Below, piece by piece: positions 3,071 through 11,300 of a stretch of 11,300 bases of DNA. The position numbers and the translations under genes were made by a program. The notes under the pieces were generated by a model. The model did no database searches. It worked only from the letters and a program-made list of their open reading frames with translations, and was not told the DNA's origin. Each line of letters starts with the position of its first letter. The stretch's first letter is position 1. Source of the DNA: Capsulimonas sp. (lineage in GTDB: Bacteria; Armatimonadota; Armatimonadia; Armatimonadales; Capsulimonadaceae). Location of the stretch: the NCBI GenBank assembly GCA_025963815.1, contig JAOQAA010000209.1, positions 1 through 11,300 on the forward strand. Direction: 5' to 3'.

Positions 3071-3300
3071 TTTTATATAAATGTAATGGAAGTTACAGCG
3101 TTTTGAATGAAAATTTGAGACAATTAATAACTTGTTTGCGTATAGGACTCAGAAAGCGCTTTTTTGCGCCGTTTTGATACTTTGTGAATAATGTTTCAAT
3201 GTCACAGCACGAAGATGTGAGTTAGCCCCACGGTGGAACCGCACGGCATGGCGCGTGGTTATATGAGAGGGTGGCGTGATTTATGATAAAGGGGAAGGCA

Positions 3301-4392
3301 ATGGCGAATAGCACAGCTTTGATGGATAAGCCAAACGCGGCGCGGGCGCCTCGATCAGTGAGCTCGGTCGACCACGACGAGCGGAGTGTATTTCCGGCGG
3401 ATGAGGCGGCTGGCGCGTTGGATGATCCCGATGCCGTTCGCTTCTTAAGCCTTGCGGCGTCCGGCGAGGACGACGGCGGAGCGCCGCTGCTCGACGCCGG
3501 CGTTGCGGACGACGATGTGGAGGATGAGGACGCCGAGGAAGAGAAGCCTCAGGTGTACCCGCCGGTTGAAGAGAACTCGCGTGACGAGTCGCTCCAGATG
3601 TGGATGCGCAAAACCAAGAGCACCAAACTTTTGAGCGCCTCCGAGGAAATGGACCTGGCTCGCCGCGTCGCCGAAGGCGATCAGCGCGCGAAGGACATCC
3701 TGACCGAAGCGAATTTGCGACTGGTTGTGAGCATCGCGCGTCGGTACTCGGTCCCGGGCATCAGCCTGGCCGACTTGATCCAGGAAGGCAACATCGGATT
3801 GATCCGGGCGGTCGAGAAGTTCGACTACAACAAGGGATTCCGATTCAGCACCTATGCGACCTGGTGGATCCGCCGGGCGATTGCGCGCGCCGTCATCAAC
3901 CAGGGCCGCACGATCCGCATTCCGGTCTATGTCGCCGAGACGATCCACAAGCTGGTTCGCACCTCGGGCCTGCTGCGTCAGCAGCTGTCCCGCGAACCAA
4001 CCCAGGAAGAGCTCGCGGCCGAGATGGAAGTTCCGGTTGAGCGCGTGAACGAGATCATGCGCATCGCCAGCGAGCCGCTCTCGCTGGAGACTCCGGTCGG
4101 CGAAAAGGATTCGGCGCAGCTCGCGGACTTTATTCAGAGCAACGCGAACCAGTCGCCGTCGGATGCGGCCGTCAATCTGATCCGGCGCGAACAGCTCGAC
4201 GCCGTTCTGGACAAGCTCACCCCGCGTGAGCGTGATGTCGTCCGCATGCGCTTCGGCCTGGACGACGGCTACGCGCACACGCTCGAAGAAGTCGGTCAGC
4301 GCTTCCAGGTCACCCGCGAGCGCGTCCGCCAGATCGAGCTGCGCGCGCTGAAGAAACTGCGCCGCATGGGACCGGTCGATATCCGGGCCTAG
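3301..4392 (+). CDS. rpoD: RNA polymerase sigma-70 factor, primary type (RpoD/SigA-like)
   Basis: A 363-residue sigma factor that directs RNA polymerase to promoters. Residues 1-90 form an acidic, low-complexity N-terminal extension rich in Asp and Glu. Region 1.2 starts near DESLQMWMRK (about 95). Region 2 follows with DLIQEGNIGLIRAVEKFDY, FRFSTYATWWIRR (W188-W189) and GRTIRIPVYVAETI. Region 3 carries TQEELAAEM. Region 4 ends the protein with LTPRERDVVRMRFGLDDG and the helix-turn-helix TLEEVGQRF-VTRERVRQIE (327-354). Length and region 1.2 fit group 1 or group 2; the short tail after LRRMG lacks the usual primary-sigma ending, so a group 2 paralogue is possible. An upstream in-frame ATG at 3283 would add six residues. 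I chose 3301 because AAAGGGG (3288-3294) lies six bases before it, though 3283 also has a purine-rich stretch upstream. The gene has its own promoter and terminator, so it looks monocistronic. Confidence 0.92.
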   Translation: MANSTALMDKPNAARAPRSVSSVDHDERSVFPADEAAGALDDPDAVRFLSLAASGEDDGGAPLLDAGVADDDVEDEDAEEEKPQVYPPVEENSRDESLQMWMRKTKSTKLLSASEEMDLARRVAEGDQRAKDILTEANLRLVVSIARRYSVPGISLADLIQEGNIGLIRAVEKFDYNKGFRFSTYATWWIRRAIARAVINQGRTIRIPVYVAETIHKLVRTSGLLRQQLSREPTQEELAAEMEVPVERVNEIMRIASEPLSLETPVGEKDSAQLADFIQSNANQSPSDAAVNLIRREQLDAVLDKLTPRERDVVRMRFGLDDGYAHTLEEVGQRFQVTRERVRQIELRALKKLRRMGPVDIRA

Positions 4393-4412: not shown

Positions 4413-4454
4413 AAAAAAAACGCCCCCGCCGATTTCTCGGCGGGGGCGTTTTTT
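4413..4454 (+). terminator. intrinsic terminator of the sigma factor gene
   Basis: A perfect 12-base stem, CGCCCCCGCCGA (4421-4432) with its complement at 4437-4448, closes a TTTC loop and is followed by six T (4449-4454). A run of eight A (4413-4420) on the left side would also let it work in reverse. Confidence 0.95.
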
Positions 4455-4465
4455 GTTGTCAATCG

Positions 4466-4519
4466 TTAACGATTTCTTAATGTGAATTTAATGCGCTCTT
4501 AACACTCGCCCGGCATAAT
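4466..4519 (+). promoter_or_regulatory. candidate Pho box array and -10 element
   Basis: Four half-sites sit at an exact 11-base period with 5-base spacers: TTAACG (4466-4471), TTAATG (4477-4482), TTAATG (4488-4493) and TTAACA (4499-4504). A -10-like CATAAT follows at 4514-4519, and no -35 box can be found at the right distance because the repeats occupy that place. Bacillus PhoP boxes are TT(A/T/C)A(C/T)A repeats with about 5-base spacing, and E. coli PhoB boxes also repeat every 11 bases and replace the -35. The downstream gene encodes a secreted nuclease, a typical phosphate-starvation product. Assignment to PhoB/PhoP is inference; the repeat itself is directly visible. Confidence 0.65.
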
Positions 4520-4594
4520 GGGCGCGTCATTGGCGATCTTCCTGATTCGCGAATATGGCGATACGCTCTCTTATGTCGAAAGGAGCCAACATTG

Positions 4595-7500
4595 ATGTTC
4601 TCTGATAATCGGAAAAGACAGTTTTATTGCTTGGCGCCGTTAACGGTTCTCGCAATTTTGGGCGGCTTGGGGCAGCCGGCGGCGCACGCCGCCGGTTCTC
4701 CCTCGATTGTGATCAGCCAGGTCTATGGTGGCGGCGGCAACAGCGGCGCGACGTACACCAATGACTATGTCGAGCTGTTCAACCACAGCTCTTCCGCCGT
4801 GAATGTGACGGGATGGTCCGTACAGTACGCGTCCTCCGCCGGCAGTTCGTGGCAGAAGACGACGCTCTCCGGAACGATCGCTCCGGGACATTACTATCTG
4901 GTGCAGGAAGCGCAGGGGACGGGTGGGACGACCAGCCTGCCGGCGCCGAACGCCACTGGAACGATCGCTCTTTCCGCGACGGCCGGCAAGGTCGCGTTAA
5001 TCAGTGACAGCACAACGATCACGAGCGGCACGGTTTGTCCGGTCGACGCCGCCGACGTAGTTGACTTCGTCGGGTTCGGTCCCGCGACGACCTGTTCCGA
5101 GACCGCTCCCACTGCGGCGCTCAGCAACACAACGGCGGCCCTGCGCGCGCAGAATGGCTGCACGGATACGGACAACAATTCGTCCGACTTCGCGGTCACG
5201 GGGCCGATCCCGCGCAACGACGCGACGGCGGCGAATATCTGCTCCGCCAGCACGGCTCCGACCGTCACCACGACCACTCCGGCGTCCGGCGCGACTTCGG
5301 TCGCGGTCAACGCCAATATCACGGTCTTCTTCAGCGAGCCGGTCAATGTGAGCGGCGCCTGGTTTACCATTATGGGGGCATCGAGCGGCGCGCATACGGC
5401 GAGTGTCAGCGGCGGCCCGACGATGTACACGCTCAATCCGGACGCGGACTTTACTCCCGGCGAATCCGTGACCGTGAAGATCGTCGGCGCGCAGGTGACC
5501 GCCCAGACCGGCGGAGCGGCGATGGCGTCGGATTACACAACGAGCTTCACCACGCAGGCCGTCACGACGGTCACTCATATCCATGACATCCAGGGCGCCG
5601 CGCACATCTCGCCGCTCAATAACACCCAGGTCACGAATGTCCAGGGCATAGTGACGGCAGTCGATAGCAACGGCTTCTACATGCAGGACATGGCGCCGGA
5701 CGCAAACGACGCCACTTCGGAAGGCATCTTTGTCTTCACGTCCTCGGCTCCCGGCCAGACGGTCGGCAACTTAGTTGCCGTGTCCGGCCGCATCTCCGAG
5801 TTCCGCCCAGGCAACGCGGCGACGAATCTGACCACGACGGAGATTGGTTCTCCGACGGTGTCCACGATTTCCAGCAGCAACCCCCTGCCGACGCCCATCG
5901 TCATCGGCCTTGGCGGCCGCGTTCCTCCGACGACCATCATTGAAGACGATGCGAGCAATGTTGAGACCAACGGCGTGTTCGATATCGCCAATGACGGGAT
6001 CGACTTCTATGAGAGCCTGGAAGGAATGCGCGTGCAGGTGAACGATCCTGTCGCGTCCGGCCCGACCAACTCCTTCGGCGAAGTTTCAGTGCTGCCGGAC
6101 AATGGCGTGAACGCTTCGGTTCGCACGCCGCGTGGCGGCATTATCATTCGCCCGACGGACTTCAACCCTGAGCGGATCATCCTAGGCAGCGCTCTGACGT
6201 CCGTGCCCAGCGTCAATGTCGGCGACCACTTCAGCGGCCCCGCAATTGGTGTTCTTTCCTACAACTTCGGCAACTTCATGCTGGAAGTGACCTCCCCGCT
6301 GACCGGGGTCTCAGGTGGTCTGACGCGGGAAATCACCGACGCACCGTCTTTGGGCCAGCTAACGGCGGCGACGTTCAACTTTGAGAACCTCGCGCCAAGT
6401 GATCCGCAGTCGAAGTTCGACCGGCTTGCTTCCCTGATCGTTAACAACCTGCGCGCCCCAGACGTGATTTCCGCCGAGGAAATCCAGGACAATACGGGCG
6501 CGACGGACAACGGCGTCGTGGATGCTTCCACAACGGTCGGCAAGCTTGTCGCCGCCATTCAGGAGGCCGGCGGCCCGACTTATCAGTACCGCAGCATCGA
6601 TCCTGTAAACGACCAGGACGGCGGCCAGCCGGGCGGCAATATCCGCGTCGGCTTCCTTTATCGCACCGATCGCGGCCTGAGCTTCATCGAACGGCCCGGC
6701 GCGGGATCGCTCACGCCCAACGCCGTCATCGGCTCGGGCGCCGCGACGCAGCTCCAGTACAGCCCCGGCCGTATCGATCCGACCAACTCGGCGTTCAACA
6801 GCAGCCGCAAGCCGCTGGCGGGCGAGTTCGTTTACAATGGCCGGAAGCTGTTTGTGATCGTGAATCACTTCAACTCCAAGGGCGGCGATGAGCCGCTTTA
6901 CGGCCCGAACCAGCCACCGGCGCGCATCTCCGAGACGCAGCGGCATCAGCAGGCGCAGATCGTCAACAGCTTCGTCGCCAATCTTCTGACGGCAGATCCC
7001 AAGGCGAATGTTATCGTGCTCGGCGACCTGAACGACTTCGAATTCTCCGACACGCTTACCATTCTGACGAGCGGCGGCGTGCTGGCCGACCTTGTCAATA
7101 CGCTGCCCCAGCTGGAGCGCTACACCTACGTGTTTGAAGGCAATTCTCAGGTTCTTGACCATATCCTGGTCAGCCCGAATCTGGTGAACACAGCGGCTCC
7201 TGTTTACGACATCGTACACGTGAACTCTGAGTTTGCCGATCAAGCCAGCGACCATGAGCCTTCGCTCGTTCGTCTTGGCGTTCCGACCGCGGGCGTAGTC
7301 ACCGGCAACGGCGCCTTCGCCTCGGCTGCCGGCGCCGCTCCCGGCTCGCCCACGGCGTCGGGTTCGGCGCGCTTCTCCGTGACGGCGCAATATGCGTCCG
7401 GCGCGGCGCAGCCGTCCGGCAAAGTACAGCTCAATCTGGCTTCGGCGAACCTGAACTTCCAGAGCACGTCGGTGCAGTCCCTGATCACAACGGGCGCCAC

Positions 7501-7726
7501 GGCGCTCATCCAGGGCGTCGGTACGGTCAACGGCGTGAGCGGATACCAGTTCTCGGCCACGGTGACGGACGCGCAGGCGACCGGCGGCGGTGGCGGCTCG
7601 GACAAGATCCGTGTGCGCATTACCGGCTTCGGCGTGATTGTGTACGACAACCAGTCTGGAGCAGCGGTGAGCGCCGCCCCGACCCAGCCGATCTCCAGCG
7701 GATCGATTATGGTCAGCGGGAATTAG
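4595..7726 (+). CDS. secreted multidomain nuclease (LTD, Ig-like, OB-like, exo/endonuclease/phosphatase)
   Basis: A 1043-residue exported nuclease of the ExeM/NucH-like type, likely to degrade extracellular DNA. Residues 1-32 are a Sec signal peptide (NRKR, hydrophobic core, AHA before the cut). A lamin-tail domain spans about 35-200 (IVISQVYGGGG, NDYVELFNHSS, GWSVQY). A Big_5-like Ig domain spans 221-320. An OB-like region starts near 328 (QVTNVQGIVTAVDSNGFYMQD). The exo/endonuclease/phosphatase domain (about 590-890) has its expected residues: N598 (FNFEN), E629 (AEEIQDN), H758 (VIVNHFNSKGG), D811 and N813 (VLGDLNDFE), D886-H887 (ASDHEP). The last ~150 residues are a beta-rich domain with a glycine run, which I do not recognise. 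ATG 4595 is preferred over the adjacent TTG 4592 because AAAGGAG (4579-4585) sits nine bases upstream. Phosphate control is suggested by the repeats at 4466-4504. No cell-wall or PEP-CTERM anchor is present, so it is probably released. Confidence 0.9.
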   Translation: MFSDNRKRQFYCLAPLTVLAILGGLGQPAAHAAGSPSIVISQVYGGGGNSGATYTNDYVELFNHSSSAVNVTGWSVQYASSAGSSWQKTTLSGTIAPGHYYLVQEAQGTGGTTSLPAPNATGTIALSATAGKVALISDSTTITSGTVCPVDAADVVDFVGFGPATTCSETAPTAALSNTTAALRAQNGCTDTDNNSSDFAVTGPIPRNDATAANICSASTAPTVTTTTPASGATSVAVNANITVFFSEPVNVSGAWFTIMGASSGAHTASVSGGPTMYTLNPDADFTPGESVTVKIVGAQVTAQTGGAAMASDYTTSFTTQAVTTVTHIHDIQGAAHISPLNNTQVTNVQGIVTAVDSNGFYMQDMAPDANDATSEGIFVFTSSAPGQTVGNLVAVSGRISEFRPGNAATNLTTTEIGSPTVSTISSSNPLPTPIVIGLGGRVPPTTIIEDDASNVETNGVFDIANDGIDFYESLEGMRVQVNDPVASGPTNSFGEVSVLPDNGVNASVRTPRGGIIIRPTDFNPERIILGSALTSVPSVNVGDHFSGPAIGVLSYNFGNFMLEVTSPLTGVSGGLTREITDAPSLGQLTAATFNFENLAPSDPQSKFDRLASLIVNNLRAPDVISAEEIQDNTGATDNGVVDASTTVGKLVAAIQEAGGPTYQYRSIDPVNDQDGGQPGGNIRVGFLYRTDRGLSFIERPGAGSLTPNAVIGSGAATQLQYSPGRIDPTNSAFNSSRKPLAGEFVYNGRKLFVIVNHFNSKGGDEPLYGPNQPPARISETQRHQQAQIVNSFVANLLTADPKANVIVLGDLNDFEFSDTLTILTSGGVLADLVNTLPQLERYTYVFEGNSQVLDHILVSPNLVNTAAPVYDIVHVNSEFADQASDHEPSLVRLGVPTAGVVTGNGAFASAAGAAPGSPTASGSARFSVTAQYASGAAQPSGKVQLNLASANLNFQSTSVQSLITTGATALIQGVGTVNGVSGYQFSATVTDAQATGGGGGSDKIRVRITGFGVIVYDNQSGAAVSAAPTQPISSGSIMVSGN

Positions 7727-7735
7727 AGCTAGGAT

Positions 7736-7816
7736 GGCCCCTCCGCCCCCACTATGGGGAACCCAGAAAATGCCTTCGTCAAAAATCTGGTCCCCCAGAA
7801 TTGGGGCGGAGGGGCC
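7736..7816. repeat. 81-base quasi-palindrome between nuclease and PEP-CTERM genes
   Basis: GGCCCCTCCGCCCC (7736-7749) is repeated inverted without a mismatch at 7803-7816. Inside it, 7755-7767 pairs again with 7786-7797 (TGGGG-ACC-AGA type arms with small bulges), so the whole element can form one long hairpin with an AT-rich tip. Alternative small hairpins, CCCC-GGGG on each side, are also possible. No T run follows, so it is not a standard terminator. It may be a REP/MITE-type element, an mRNA-processing hairpin or an attenuator. Confidence 0.7.
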
Positions 7817-7861
7817 GAATGCCCACTTCTCAAGCAAGTTTCGCAGAAAGATCATTCACCC

Positions 7862-8581
7862 ATGAAATTCTTACGCTTCGCGCCGGCCGCCGCGTTTGTC
7901 GCCGGCGCTGCATTCTGCCTCACCCTCACGCCCGCCGCACAGGCCGCGCCGTTCTCATGCACCGTCAGCGGCGTCATCACTTCGGATTCTGATCTCACGG
8001 CGTTCACCGACGCGCATATCGGGGATGTGTTTACCTCGACTTTTACGCTGAACACGAGCACGCCGTTCACGGCGTCCGGCGGATACCGGGAGTATGAATC
8101 GTTCTCGTCCCTGGACGGCGCGACTGTGACGTTCAGCGGTTTCACGGTCACTCCCGACGCGCTGCTGCAGCAGGACCAATACCTGCTGGCCCGAAATGAG
8201 ATCAACACGGGCGGCGTCTTTGTCGATCCGCACGACGCGATCTTCACACAAAGCTCCAACGCGAGCGGCTCCGGTCTGACTGACGCCTACTCATCGATCG
8301 ATCTCAGCAGCGCTCCCGGACACGATCCGCTGTTCGCAACGACGCTTCCATTGACTGGCTCTGGCCTGAATGATATTAGCCAGTGGGACGTCCATAGCTT
8401 TACGTTCTACGCGACGAACACCTCGAACAATCAGGTCGGTTACTTTACCGGCGACATTACCGCGATCTCATCAGCGGCTCCCGCCGTTCCGGAACCGTCG
8501 CAAAGCGCGGCGATCGTTCTGGGCGTGGTGTGTCTCGCCGTTTGCGCCGCGCGGCGGCGACGCGCGCAGCCCATGGCGTAA
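7862..8581 (+). CDS. PEP-CTERM sorting domain protein, surface-exposed or matrix-linked
   Basis: A 239-residue exported protein. Residues 1-28 are a Sec signal peptide (MKFLRF, hydrophobic core, AQA). The C-terminus has the full PEP-CTERM tripartite signal: VPEPS at 209-213, a hydrophobic segment at about 215-230 and an RRRR stretch at 231-234. This class is processed by an exosortase in the inner membrane and ends up outside the cell, often with exopolysaccharide. The middle (about 29-205) is a beta-rich domain with no family I recognise. An upstream in-frame ATG at 7754 lies inside the palindrome and would put about 36 residues before the signal peptide, so 7862 is preferred, although its ribosome site is weak (AGAAAGA). 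No separate promoter is visible, so it may be read through from the nuclease gene. No exosortase gene lies in the window. Confidence 0.85.
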   Translation: MKFLRFAPAAAFVAGAAFCLTLTPAAQAAPFSCTVSGVITSDSDLTAFTDAHIGDVFTSTFTLNTSTPFTASGGYREYESFSSLDGATVTFSGFTVTPDALLQQDQYLLARNEINTGGVFVDPHDAIFTQSSNASGSGLTDAYSSIDLSSAPGHDPLFATTLPLTGSGLNDISQWDVHSFTFYATNTSNNQVGYFTGDITAISSAAPAVPEPSQSAAIVLGVVCLAVCAARRRRAQPMA

Positions 8582-8616
8582 TCCATCGGCCTGCCCTTGA
8601 AACCACCTCGTTCATG

Positions 8617-8653
8617 AAAAGCGTCCCGCCGATTACCGGCGGGGCGTTTTTTT
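8617..8653 (+). terminator. intrinsic terminator after the PEP-CTERM gene
   Basis: CGTCCCGCCG (8622-8631) pairs with CGGCGGGGCG (8637-8646) around a 5-base loop, with one T-G wobble, and seven T follow (8647-8653). Four A precede the stem. It ends the transcript 35-70 bases after the PEP-CTERM stop. Confidence 0.9.
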
Positions 8654-8758
8654 ATGGGAGGCGGTTGGGATGAAAATCCGCAGTCAGACTATTTTAAAGC
8701 GATGGCTCCAAACTGGCTCTATAATAGGGGCGTGCGGCGCCAGAGATGCAAATTTTTC

Positions 8759-8787
8759 TTGACAGTCAAACTGATGAGTGTTATCAT
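8759..8787 (+). promoter_or_regulatory. strong sigma-70 promoter of the glycosidase operon
   Basis: A perfect TTGACA (8759-8764) and TATCAT (8782-8787) are exactly 17 bases apart. Transcription should begin near 8794, giving a leader of about 70 bases to the ATG at 8865. The rest of the 283-base gap holds the terminator at 8617-8653 and a lone TATAAT at 8720-8725 with no convincing -35. Confidence 0.75.
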
Positions 8788-8864
8788 AAGGCGCAAGGAA
8801 ATCCAAAACAAAACCGGATGCTTCGTCGCAGCCGGTAAGAAGACAGAAGACAAGGGAGTATTTT

Positions 8865-10166
8865 ATGTCTCAAGGTGTGAATTGCAATCTATGGAAATTT
8901 GCCGCCGGCGTCGCCGTCGCGCTGCCGTTCTTTGGCGCCGTTGCTCCGCAGCGGGCGGACGCGGCGAGCGCGGGTGTCTATGGCAGCGAACGGTTTTTCA
9001 CAATGAACGCCGCAGATACTGCGGGGATCCGAGCGTCGGGAATGTCGTCGCTGTTTCTGTTCGCGATGTCCGTCAATCCCAATGGCGATTTTTACTATGG
9101 CGGCCACGTGCTCTGCCAGAACGGCGCTTATACCGGCGACGCCGGCTGGCGCTCGCGCATCGATGGGTGCCGCACGCTGCCGACCGGCGTTAATCGCATT
9201 GAGATGGCGATTGGCGGATGGGGTTCGCCGACGTTCCAGAATATCAAGGACCGTATTGCCGCCGATGGAACCGGGACCAATACCGTTCTTTATCGCAATC
9301 TGAGTGCATTGAAGAATGCTTTAGGAATTAATGCTATTCAGTTCGATGACGAGACGACCTATGATGTGGGCTCGGCGTCGGCGTTTGGCAATATGGTCGC
9401 CGCCGTGGGCATGAAAGTGACGCTGTGTCCCTACACCAACGCGGGGTACTGGCAGAGCGTCAAGGCGCAGCTTGGGGCTAAGGTGGACGCGGTCTACCTC
9501 CAGTGTTACGACGGTGGCGCGGCCAACAATCCAGCCAGCTGGAACAATCTTTTTGGTGGCCTGAAGGTCCAGGTCGGATACTGGGAGCGGGAGCGCGACG
9601 CGACGTTTCAGACCAAGATGCTGAATCTGGGACGCGCCAACGGCTGCACGGGCGGCTTCCTCTGGACGGACGACGTGGTGGACACTTCCTCGGAACTGCT
9701 GAAGTACTCCGACTGGATCCATACCAGCCTGGATAACAACGGGACTTCGACCAATGTGATCCTGAACCGCGCCACGCTGATGGCGCTGGACGCGAGCGGC
9801 GCGGGAACCGTGAACGGTACGCCGCTGATCCAATCGACCCTGCACGGCGGCAGCAACCAGCAGTGGATTAGCACCTATAGCGGCGGGCAGGGCAGTTTCA
9901 TCGGCGTCGGCAGCGGCCGAGCGGCGACGGTGGACGGTTACCAATACGGCGATAACGTCGGCGTCAGCCTCTGGGACAACATTGGCGCATTACACCAGAA
10001 ATACACCGTCCAGTACCAGGGCGCGGGCTTCTATAGCATCGTGTTTGCCCATTCCGGCAAGGCGATGCAGGTTCAGAACGCCTCCACCGCTTCCGGTGCG
10101 CGCGTGGTGCAATACACGCTGAACGCCAACGGCTACAACGCCCAGTGGGCGTTCCGCTGCCCATAA
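8865..10166 (+). CDS. secreted GH18-like glycosidase with C-terminal RICIN lectin domain
   Basis: A 433-residue exported protein. The signal peptide ends near residue 33 (RADA before the cut). Residues 35-285 resemble a GH18 (chitinase or chitin-binding) barrel: MAIGGWGS (114-121) matches the SxGG strand, INAIQFDDE (155-163) stands where DxxDxDxE is expected, YLQCYD (211-216) matches the MxYD strand, and GGFLWTDD (263-270) matches the last barrel strand. D161 and the acid E163 are kept, but the first two Asp of the motif are Asn and Gln, so activity may be altered. Residues 297-432 are a RICIN-type beta-trefoil lectin (LMALDASGAGTVNGTPLIQ, QQWI, NAQWAF) that binds carbohydrate. AAGGGAG (8852-8858) lies six bases before the ATG, and a strong promoter precedes it. 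The next gene follows after 32 bases. Family assignment is by motif only. Confidence 0.8.
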   Translation: MSQGVNCNLWKFAAGVAVALPFFGAVAPQRADAASAGVYGSERFFTMNAADTAGIRASGMSSLFLFAMSVNPNGDFYYGGHVLCQNGAYTGDAGWRSRIDGCRTLPTGVNRIEMAIGGWGSPTFQNIKDRIAADGTGTNTVLYRNLSALKNALGINAIQFDDETTYDVGSASAFGNMVAAVGMKVTLCPYTNAGYWQSVKAQLGAKVDAVYLQCYDGGAANNPASWNNLFGGLKVQVGYWERERDATFQTKMLNLGRANGCTGGFLWTDDVVDTSSELLKYSDWIHTSLDNNGTSTNVILNRATLMALDASGAGTVNGTPLIQSTLHGGSNQQWISTYSGGQGSFIGVGSGRAATVDGYQYGDNVGVSLWDNIGALHQKYTVQYQGAGFYSIVFAHSGKAMQVQNASTASGARVVQYTLNANGYNAQWAFRCP

Positions 10167-10198
10167 GGCTTTTTACGAATAGGATTTGAGAAACCACA

Positions 10199-11300
10199 AT
10201 GAAACTCAAGAATACGCTTCTTTTGCTTCTCGCTGTGAGCTTGCTGCTGGGCGTGGGAACTTCGGCGCGGGCGTTTACCCAGGCCGACGCCAATACCGCC
10301 TGGCAGTCGTACAAGCAGCAGTTCTTTTACGTGATTAACGGCAGCGAGGGATATTTTCGAAACCAGCAAGGGGGCGGTAACACCACGACGACCTATCAGC
10401 TCGCATACGATATCGAGGCGGCGGTGGACGCTAGGGACGTCACCGTGGTCAACCAAACGATCAACGGGTTTGTCGCGCTTTATGGAACCAATCCGGCGTC
10501 GTGGGATGTCGCCGAAGACGACAATATGACCTTCGCACTGGTCTTTGCCGCTGCCTATCAGCTGACCGGGAACCCAAGCCATCTGGCCATGGCGAAGAGT
10601 AATTTCGACACCTGCTATAACCGCGCCTGGGATTCGGCGAATGGCGGAGGGCTTATGCGCATTGTCCCCGGCGTCAAATCCGCGCAGGTCAACGGCCCTG
10701 GGTGCCTGGCCGCATATTTGATCTATCAAAGCGGGGGAGGAAGCGCGTATTTGACCAAGGCGCAAAACATCTACAACTGGATGCTGGCGAATGTTTGGAA
10801 CGCATCGACCGGCCAGGTGAACGCCACCCCCGGGGACACCACGAACCCTTTGTCGGCGGATGTCTCCTATTTTGCCGCGTGCTCCTACTACCTAGGATAC
10901 CCGGCAAACGTGACGCTGGCGGGCAACTTTGTGAAGAACCGCTGGGGAACCGGGATGCAGGGGTTTGGACCGGGATCCTTTCTTGGCAGCGTGAATAGCG
11001 TCAACCTGCGCTGGCTGGCGAAATCCGGCTTCGATCCCGCTTTCCTGCGCGCATGCTGTGATCGGGGGCTGACGTGCATGAATACGTCCGGTCTCGTCGG
11101 ACCGGATTTCAATCAGCCGACTTCCAACAGTCCCGCCTACTCATTTGACTGCACCAACATCATCGCCGGACTGATGTGCGCGCCTCCCGCCATCGGCCCA
11201 GGGACGTACGCCCTGTTCGTGCGCTCCACAAACCTGGCGCTCGACGCCAATCTCGCCGGAACGGCAAACGGCACGCCCGTGGTTCAGTCAGGGTATCACG
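10199..11300 (+). CDS. secreted GH76-like glycoside hydrolase with RICIN domain (3' end beyond window)
   Basis: The frame is open to the window end; 367 residues are visible. Residues 1-25 are a Sec signal peptide (MKLKNT, leucine-rich core, ARA). Residues 30-330 resemble the (alpha/alpha)6 barrel of GH76, the alpha-1,6-mannanase family: AEDDNMTFALVFAAAYQLTG carries the Asp pair D107-D108 at the place of the GH76 catalytic aspartates, WDSANGGGLMR (144-153) matches the W-GGG motif, and a later helix has YLTKAQNIYNWM. From about 337, YALFVRSTNLALDANLAGT begins a RICIN lectin domain like that of the upstream gene, cut off after about 31 residues. The gene follows the GH18-like gene by 32 bases with no terminator, so the two are probably one operon. 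The ribosome site is poor (AGGA 18-15 bases upstream), so translation may depend partly on the upstream gene. An activity against fungal mannan-type glycan is inference. Confidence 0.82.
   Translation, partial: MKLKNTLLLLLAVSLLLGVGTSARAFTQADANTAWQSYKQQFFYVINGSEGYFRNQQGGGNTTTTYQLAYDIEAAVDARDVTVVNQTINGFVALYGTNPASWDVAEDDNMTFALVFAAAYQLTGNPSHLAMAKSNFDTCYNRAWDSANGGGLMRIVPGVKSAQVNGPGCLAAYLIYQSGGGSAYLTKAQNIYNWMLANVWNASTGQVNATPGDTTNPLSADVSYFAACSYYLGYPANVTLAGNFVKNRWGTGMQGFGPGSFLGSVNSVNLRWLAKSGFDPAFLRACCDRGLTCMNTSGLVGPDFNQPTSNSPAYSFDCTNIIAGLMCAPPAIGPGTYALFVRSTNLALDANLAGTANGTPVVQSGYH

Follow-up and report, generated by a model that had tools for sequence, protein, structure and literature searches.

A predicted phosphate-starvation promoter with four 11-bp repeats ahead of a NucH-like nuclease gene in Capsulimonas (Armatimonadota)

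The segment 4465-4519 of a Capsulimonas sp. DNA stretch of 11,300 nucleotides (the window) very probably is a class II activator-dependent promoter of the phosphate-starvation response, at which a regulator of the PhoB/SphR type would control the gene of a secreted nuclease. This reading is built on features that can be read from the DNA: the repeats, their orientation, their preferred distance to the -10 element and the fact that they recur ahead of phosphate genes and of homologues of the nuclease.

Promoter region and neighbouring genes

The four TTAA cores of the array are located on the plus strand at positions 4466, 4477, 4488 and 4499, as TTAACG, TTAATG, TTAATG and TTAACA, with an exact period of 11 nt. 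Oriented according to the unit obtained by EM from 65 sites, the plus-strand units are GTTAACGA (4465-4472), CTTAATGT (4476-4483), TTTAATGC (4487-4494) and CTTAACAC (4498-4505), the last being nearest to the -10 element. An exact oriented triple (4476-4503) begins at the second unit. The putative -10 hexamer CATAAT (4514-4519, plus strand) is found 9 bases past TTAACA and 15 nt from the start of the last TTAA, the commonest spacing in the 52 sites described below. No -35-like hexamer is present 16-18 bp upstream of CATAAT, where the hexamers are TGCGCT, ATGCGC and AATGCG. The window thus contains a tandem array of four direct repeats which replaces the -35 box at the preferred -10 distance. 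The first-pass annotation, which had described four half-sites with identical spacers and an exact 11-base period, nine bases before CATAAT and without a -35 box, was correct in all of these points.

The interval between rpoD and the array contains an intrinsic terminator hairpin (4415-4454, plus strand) with an 18-bp stem and an MFE of -34.9 kcal/mol (z -7.97); by reading, it has T runs on both strands. Because this strong hairpin follows rpoD, the array is assigned to a promoter region of its own, that of the nuclease. A ribosome-binding site, AAAGGAG (4579-4585, plus strand), can be read 9 nt ahead of the ATG at 4595. An Rfam search of the window gave no match.

The gene at 3283-4392 (plus strand) codes for an RpoD/SigA housekeeping sigma factor of 369 amino acids with Sigma70 regions 1.2, 2, 3 and 4; the RpoD models fit best, with scores below their curated cut-offs. 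Among named records, an uncultured Armatimonadetes bacterium is closest to it (79%, locus L179) and the other 79 loci kept of 589 are at 61% or less, in a scan that may omit records very near the window's genome. Neither the nuclease nor the box was found in the 7.3-kb locus L179. The window also codes for a TIR-domain protein (PF13676, 1-1764), cut by the contig start and with weak PADLOC matches only (PDC-S66 and SAVED_TIR), and, upstream of rpoD, for an HD-domain (HD_5) response regulator (1846-2940). After the nuclease, at 7754-11299, there are a PEP-CTERM-like protein (weak), a ricin-lectin protein and a GH76 protein.

The nuclease and its homologues

The gene behind the promoter (4595-7726, plus strand) codes for a protein with LTD, Big_5 and endonuclease/exonuclease/phosphatase domains (PF00932, PF13205, PF03372 and PF19580), which resembles the ExeM/NucH nucleases. 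The start was taken at ATG 4595; the list of open reading frames gives TTG 4592. The LTD and EEP nuclease domains PF00932, PF03372 and PF19580 score above their cut-offs. The ExeM_NucH model NF033681 aligns with residues 350-880, behind the lamin-tail domain, at 152.9 bits with a cut-off of 300, and the protein is therefore called NucH-like here and not filed as a member. The PDB entries 9sf9 (E 6e-108) and 9sf8 (8e-108) match the protein. Its N-terminus and the names of its homologues suggest that it is secreted.

Homologues of the nuclease (E<=1e-20) are present in five of 61 genomes including the host, the others being G017, G020, G047 and G060 from three other families. By reading, all five genes are preceded by TTAA-type units, some of them degenerate, with a -10-like hexamer at +15. 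The box scores are 35.5 for the host, 38.7 for G017, 26.9 for G060, 14.6 for G020 and 9.3 for G047, compared with a highest score of 14.8 and a 99th percentile of 7.8 in 263 control chunks. Among 1000 block shuffles the observed score was reached 0 times for the host, G017, G060 and G020 and 16 times for G047. Three of the nuclease boxes are thus strong and two (G020 and G047) are weak. Some of the best 120 of 7359 listed homologues carry names from other phyla (Gaiellaceae, Chloroflexota and Limnocylindria), and horizontal spread of the gene is therefore possible.

Distribution of the repeat

The host belongs to the Armatimonadota, that is, outside Firmicutes and Proteobacteria, the case in which the annotation had foreseen a phosphate box for a little-studied phylum. 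Its assembly (4.77 Mb in 734 contigs, 69% complete, the window being the whole contig C69) contains five four-unit arrays at up to 1 mismatch, four of them perfect, versus 0 for the reversed control. In the congener G001 there are 7 four-unit arrays with up to 1 mismatch versus 0 in the reversed control. Summed over 61 genomes, 133 such arrays were found versus 15 reversed, and a match is present in 31 of the 61. Dinucleotide shuffles of the window (200) gave a mean of 0.00 array matches even with 3 mismatches; the window itself has three matches at this level, two being the array and one (position 1147, 3 mismatches) located within the TIR gene.

Loose matching of the host assembly was rejected as uninformative. 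With up to 3 mismatches of the four TTAA, the reversed control gave 21 matches and the pattern 12 per strand. Since the control exceeds the pattern, only near-perfect arrays are informative.

The EM unit from the 65 listed sites is (C/T)TTAA(C/T), followed mostly by A or C, then T and T. The base frequencies are 0.69 for C before TTAA and 0.88 for C or T after it, values that are partly built in, since the EM itself picked the orientation of each site. In 291 Armatimonadota genomes, 172 matches were obtained with the exact oriented triple YTTAAY-N5-YTTAAY-N5-YTTAAY and 5 with the reversed control, overlapping registers being included in these counts, so that a four-unit array gives two matches. 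The triple occurs in 52 of the 291 genomes and is absent in 239, with a concentration in some families. The idea of a phosphate box for the phylum holds in that many relatives have boxes, but their distribution is uneven. In 14 genomes picked largely for known arrays the oriented triple gave 76 matches versus 0 in the control, with none in G005 and G022. The scoring matrix was built from the sites of the 61-genome array search, and its training set includes the pstS locus L044 and the nuclease sites of the host and G017. Block-shuffled sequence from six loci, 764 kb in all, contained no matrix score above 18.

The distance from the last TTAA to a TANNNT hexamer was determined for 52 distinct sites. 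It is 15 nt in 22 sites, 16 nt in 2, 26 nt in 9 and 27 nt in 7, so that 40 of the 52 have the hexamer at one of these distances, versus 0-16 for ten shifted frames. These peaks are located one and two helical turns downstream; smaller ones are seen at 10 nt (6 sites) and 20 nt (8 sites). The window's CATAAT, also at 15 nt, is outside the 22 sites, since its first base is C. Such phased spacing is what would be expected if the -35 contact were taken over by an activator.

Boxes before phosphate genes

Scored on the sense strand over 1.6 kb of upstream sequence, the best match was above 18 in 9 of 30 PstS loci, one of the nine (L044) being a training site of the matrix, and above 15 in 12 of 30. 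The SBP_bac_1 control loci of the same genome set gave 0 of 30 at both thresholds (Mann-Whitney p 9e-5 versus PstS). The PstS loci come from 25 of 26 genomes; some are cut by contig ends, and L066 is below the family cut-off. On the antisense strand, with TTAA being palindromic, 1 PstS locus scored above 18 and 4 above 15. No box above 15 was found in the 1.6 kb upstream in 18 of the 30 PstS loci. PhoU was used as a second phosphate marker, and a box was found in only 2 of 30 loci, some of which share one gene.

Immediately upstream of the two pstS genes of the host there is no box. However, one of the two follows a porin gene, and it is this porin gene that is preceded by the box CTTAATATTCTC TTAACATTCGC and then TAAACT at +15 (score 24.1). 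According to Pfam, the boxed operon codes for Porin_O_P with an SLH domain, then PstS and two BPD_transp_1 proteins. The same two-unit box with TAAACT at +15 is conserved before the porin gene of G001 (score 24.8). The second pstS has no box in the host, nor in G001.

Further examples come from the relatives. In G004, one box is located ahead of a pstCAB-like operon that begins with a PF00528 gene (the first gene alone was scanned), and others are found before a pstS with a PhoU_div gene, before a PF04185 gene and before a putative porin-like gene. G003 has a box ahead of a PF04185 gene. In G001 a box is followed by a small ORF and then PhoA (PF00245), and another by a DUF1559 gene and then a PF04185 protein; behind the G001 site at 2138784, the coordinates suggest a 1284-aa PF04185 frame. 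The PF04185 loci were used for distances only; the match starts deep in the gene and a flank of 1.5 kb is often short of the promoter.

The box is thus found ahead of phosphate genes in the host genome and in relatives, though not before all pstS genes. The enrichment before phosphate genes on which the first-pass annotation had made its Pho regulon promoter depend was examined here by comparison, and the result was positive. The Pho reading gains support from the boxes before the porin O/P-pstS genes of host and congener, before pstS, pstCAB-like and PhoA genes of relatives, and before PF04185, PF01663 and phytase-like genes.

Candidate regulator and proposed mechanism

On contig C515 of G000 a response regulator of 237 amino acids adjoins a histidine kinase of 377 amino acids, and a like pair is present in G001. 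The best NCBIfam model for the G000 regulator is PhoB (239.6 bits, below the curated cut-off of 296.2), and for the kinase PnpS (351.1 bits, below the curated cut-off of 400), with PhoR second. In each of three genomes the PhoB-like regulator is the top TIGR02154 match, at least 30 bits ahead of the next. A search for autoregulation found no box at the phoB-like genes (best scores 8.9-10.9, both strands). A pair of this type may act on the boxes.

The following mechanism can be proposed from the sequences. When phosphate is scarce, which is the presumed signal, a PhoR-type kinase would phosphorylate a response regulator of the PhoB/SphR type. Dimers of the regulator would bind head-to-tail to the four 11-bp direct repeats, which all face the same side of the helix, and the downstream subunits over the -35 region would bring the sigma-70 RNA polymerase to CATAAT. 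The cell would then secrete the NucH/ExeM-like nuclease, whose putative role is to obtain phosphorus from extracellular DNA.

Other genes behind the boxes

Forty loci with exact oriented triples were fetched, and 38 of them have an ORF within 700 bp (L324 and L325 have none); the longest such ORF was taken, which is not always the first. Sites at contig ends without downstream room (G002:C90, G017:C333, G017:C370 and G018:C243) were left out. A DUF1559-type pilin-like N-terminus was found behind 21 of the 38 sites (loci among L319-L357), the call being made by the N-terminal pattern; Pfam gave PF07596 in all 5 of the 21 that were scanned. The background of DUF1559 is about 1-2% of genes, estimated from at least 44-119 PF07596 matches per genome in eight genomes and from gene numbers derived from genome size, and the binomial value for 21 of 38 is about 4e-26 at 2%. 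Behind the other 17 sites are PF04185 (two), PF01663 (two), PF00245, PF13449, SpoU (two), SBP_bac_11, GntR and a sugar transferase; four have no Pfam match and two (L321 and L337) are without a Pfam scan. Phosphate-ester hydrolases, namely the PF04185, PF01663 and PF00245 proteins and the phytase-like PF13449 protein, are thus located behind 6 of the 38 sites.

Four of the 21 boxed DUF1559 genes (G008:C50, G014:C93, G014:C97 and G015:C255) are followed within 5 kb on the same strand by a PF04185 gene, and G001 has one further case; this distance survey is without G039, which holds three of the 21, and intervening genes were left out of the comparison.

Several features of the boxed genes were seen in passing. 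DUF1559 pilin-like genes are also the commonest behind near-perfect boxes (L075, L073 and L082 as well), several being followed by a PF04185 phosphoesterase. Near-perfect boxes precede a SpoU-type methylase gene in four of the family's genomes (L072:405-443, L079:5561-5599 on the minus strand, L346 and L353). Three of the four were assigned by Pfam and the G001 gene by likeness; G000 and G001 are both boxed. Genes of the GntR family of regulators follow strong boxes in two genomes (L074:637-675 on the minus strand, and L328, with a sugar-binding-type domain), and a bacterial sugar transferase (PF02397) follows one at L343:476-1150. Two secreted-looking proteins of about 490-510 amino acids, L335:982-2457 in G015 and L083:5429-6892 in G001, start with VVFG..GSSALF and are located behind strong boxes. 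Pfam gave no match for the G015 protein (492 amino acids) or its G001 look-alike, and the G015 protein has one single weak PDB match. They are possibly a new phosphate-binding or surface protein.

The box targets suggest a phosphate role for DUF1559. We tentatively propose that the Armatimonadota Pho regulon could be largely built on DUF1559 (PF07596) pseudopilins or surface proteins, which would be induced by phosphate starvation and aid the export or display of phosphatases, the window nuclease being one member. If true, this would give a large family of unknown function its first link to a biological role. Rhodopirellula baltica has 74 DUF1559 genes, and such genes are described to rise under salt, cold and heat stress, phosphate limitation being absent from that account (PMC2754498).

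Alternative explanations

The array could be the target of a different response regulator of the OmpR family, perhaps one that controls DUF1559 pilin-like proteins or surface secretion, with phosphate genes as minority targets. The share of DUF1559 genes behind the sites, far above their 1-2% background, is in agreement with this, as are the boxes at SpoU, GntR and sugar-transferase genes, none of them a classical Pho target. A box is also missing from the phoB-like genes and from 28 of 30 PhoU loci. However, phosphate-ester hydrolases make up 6 of the 17 targets other than DUF1559, and boxes are found elsewhere at genes for pst, porin O/P, PhoA, phosphoesterases and the nuclease. In addition, some boxed DUF1559 genes (4 of 21 and one in G001) themselves precede PF04185 genes, and the box agrees in unit and period with that of cyanobacterial SphR (PMC1906773). 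Such a regulator is considered unlikely.

It is still less probable that the box is a true Pho box to which the nuclease promoter of this strain no longer responds, the response being lost or overridden. Several confirmed PHO boxes are known at genes without obvious phosphate regulation (PMC4415409), and the nuclease is patchy, in 5 of 61 genomes. However, the promoter has four intact units, a good -10 element and the commonest spacing, and a similar arrangement is found before the homologues in four other genomes. As for an origin by chance or from DNA structure (a phased, AT-rich UP element or curvature, for example) with no operator function, TTAA is indeed palindromic and AT-rich, and with loose matching the reversed control exceeds the pattern in the host. 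This explanation is hardly credible and is already contradicted by the oriented exact triples (172 versus 5), by the oriented flanking bases (in part a product of the EM), by the preferred -10 distances of one and two helical turns and by the 764 kb of block-shuffled sequence, in which no score exceeded 18. The phosphate-starvation promoter is therefore the preferred reading. It provides a searchable phosphate box for the Armatimonadota, from which part of the regulon can be predicted by sequence alone, and a testable proposal for the abundant, functionally uncharacterized DUF1559 proteins.

Comparison with known systems

Among the open-access papers listed in literature searches, none was found to describe a Pho box in Armatimonadetes or Armatimonadota. 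The Bacillus subtilis PhoP box consists of TTAACA direct repeats. It shares with the window the TTAAC core, the period of about 11 bp and the location in the -35 region; the window unit differs in that its TTAA is flanked by C or T on the 5' side and by T or C on the 3' side, and it is from another phylum. The Fimbriimonas genome paper links a PhoB-PhoR pair to exopolysaccharide under phosphate limitation, in an account that presents no box or regulon (PMC4072686). In the present set, one of the boxed genes (L343) codes for a sugar transferase.

PHO boxes in general are 11-nt direct repeats with a species-dependent consensus (PMC4415409). The E. coli PhoB box has 11-nt direct repeats 10 bp ahead of a TAN3T/A -10 element and a core of CTGTCAT or CTGTACTA, compared with CTTAAC here (PMC1906773, PMC4415409); the gap between the last 8-mer and the -10 element is 8 nt in the window versus those 10 bp. 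The PhoP/PhoB geometry suggested by the first-pass annotation is retained as regards the 11-nt repeats that replace the -35 box, but the unit is closest to that of SphR and not to E. coli PhoB.

The cyanobacterial SphR box is described as at least three direct 8-bp repeats CTTAACCT with 3-bp linkers; Synechocystis PCC 6803 phoA-nucH has four copies, and nucH of four other cyanobacteria has predicted SphR sites upstream (PMC1906773). The EM unit of the 65 sites, (C/T)TTAA(C/T)(A/C)T plus 3 bases, corresponds to this unit and linker. The window agrees with that description in the unit, the period of 11, the number of units and the type of target, the SphR targets including pst, phoA and the extracellular nuclease nucH (PMC1906773). 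It differs in that the box is from another phylum with a looser unit, the targets also include DUF1559 and SpoU genes, and the regulator here is a candidate only. The pairing of a CTTAAC box with a NucH-like nuclease may extend beyond cyanobacteria. As judged from the sequences, the known box nearest to that of the window is the one of cyanobacterial SphR and not the one of E. coli PhoB; the design of this predicted Pho box is already known, and its occurrence in the Armatimonadota is new as far as the listed open-access papers show, with strong comparative support.
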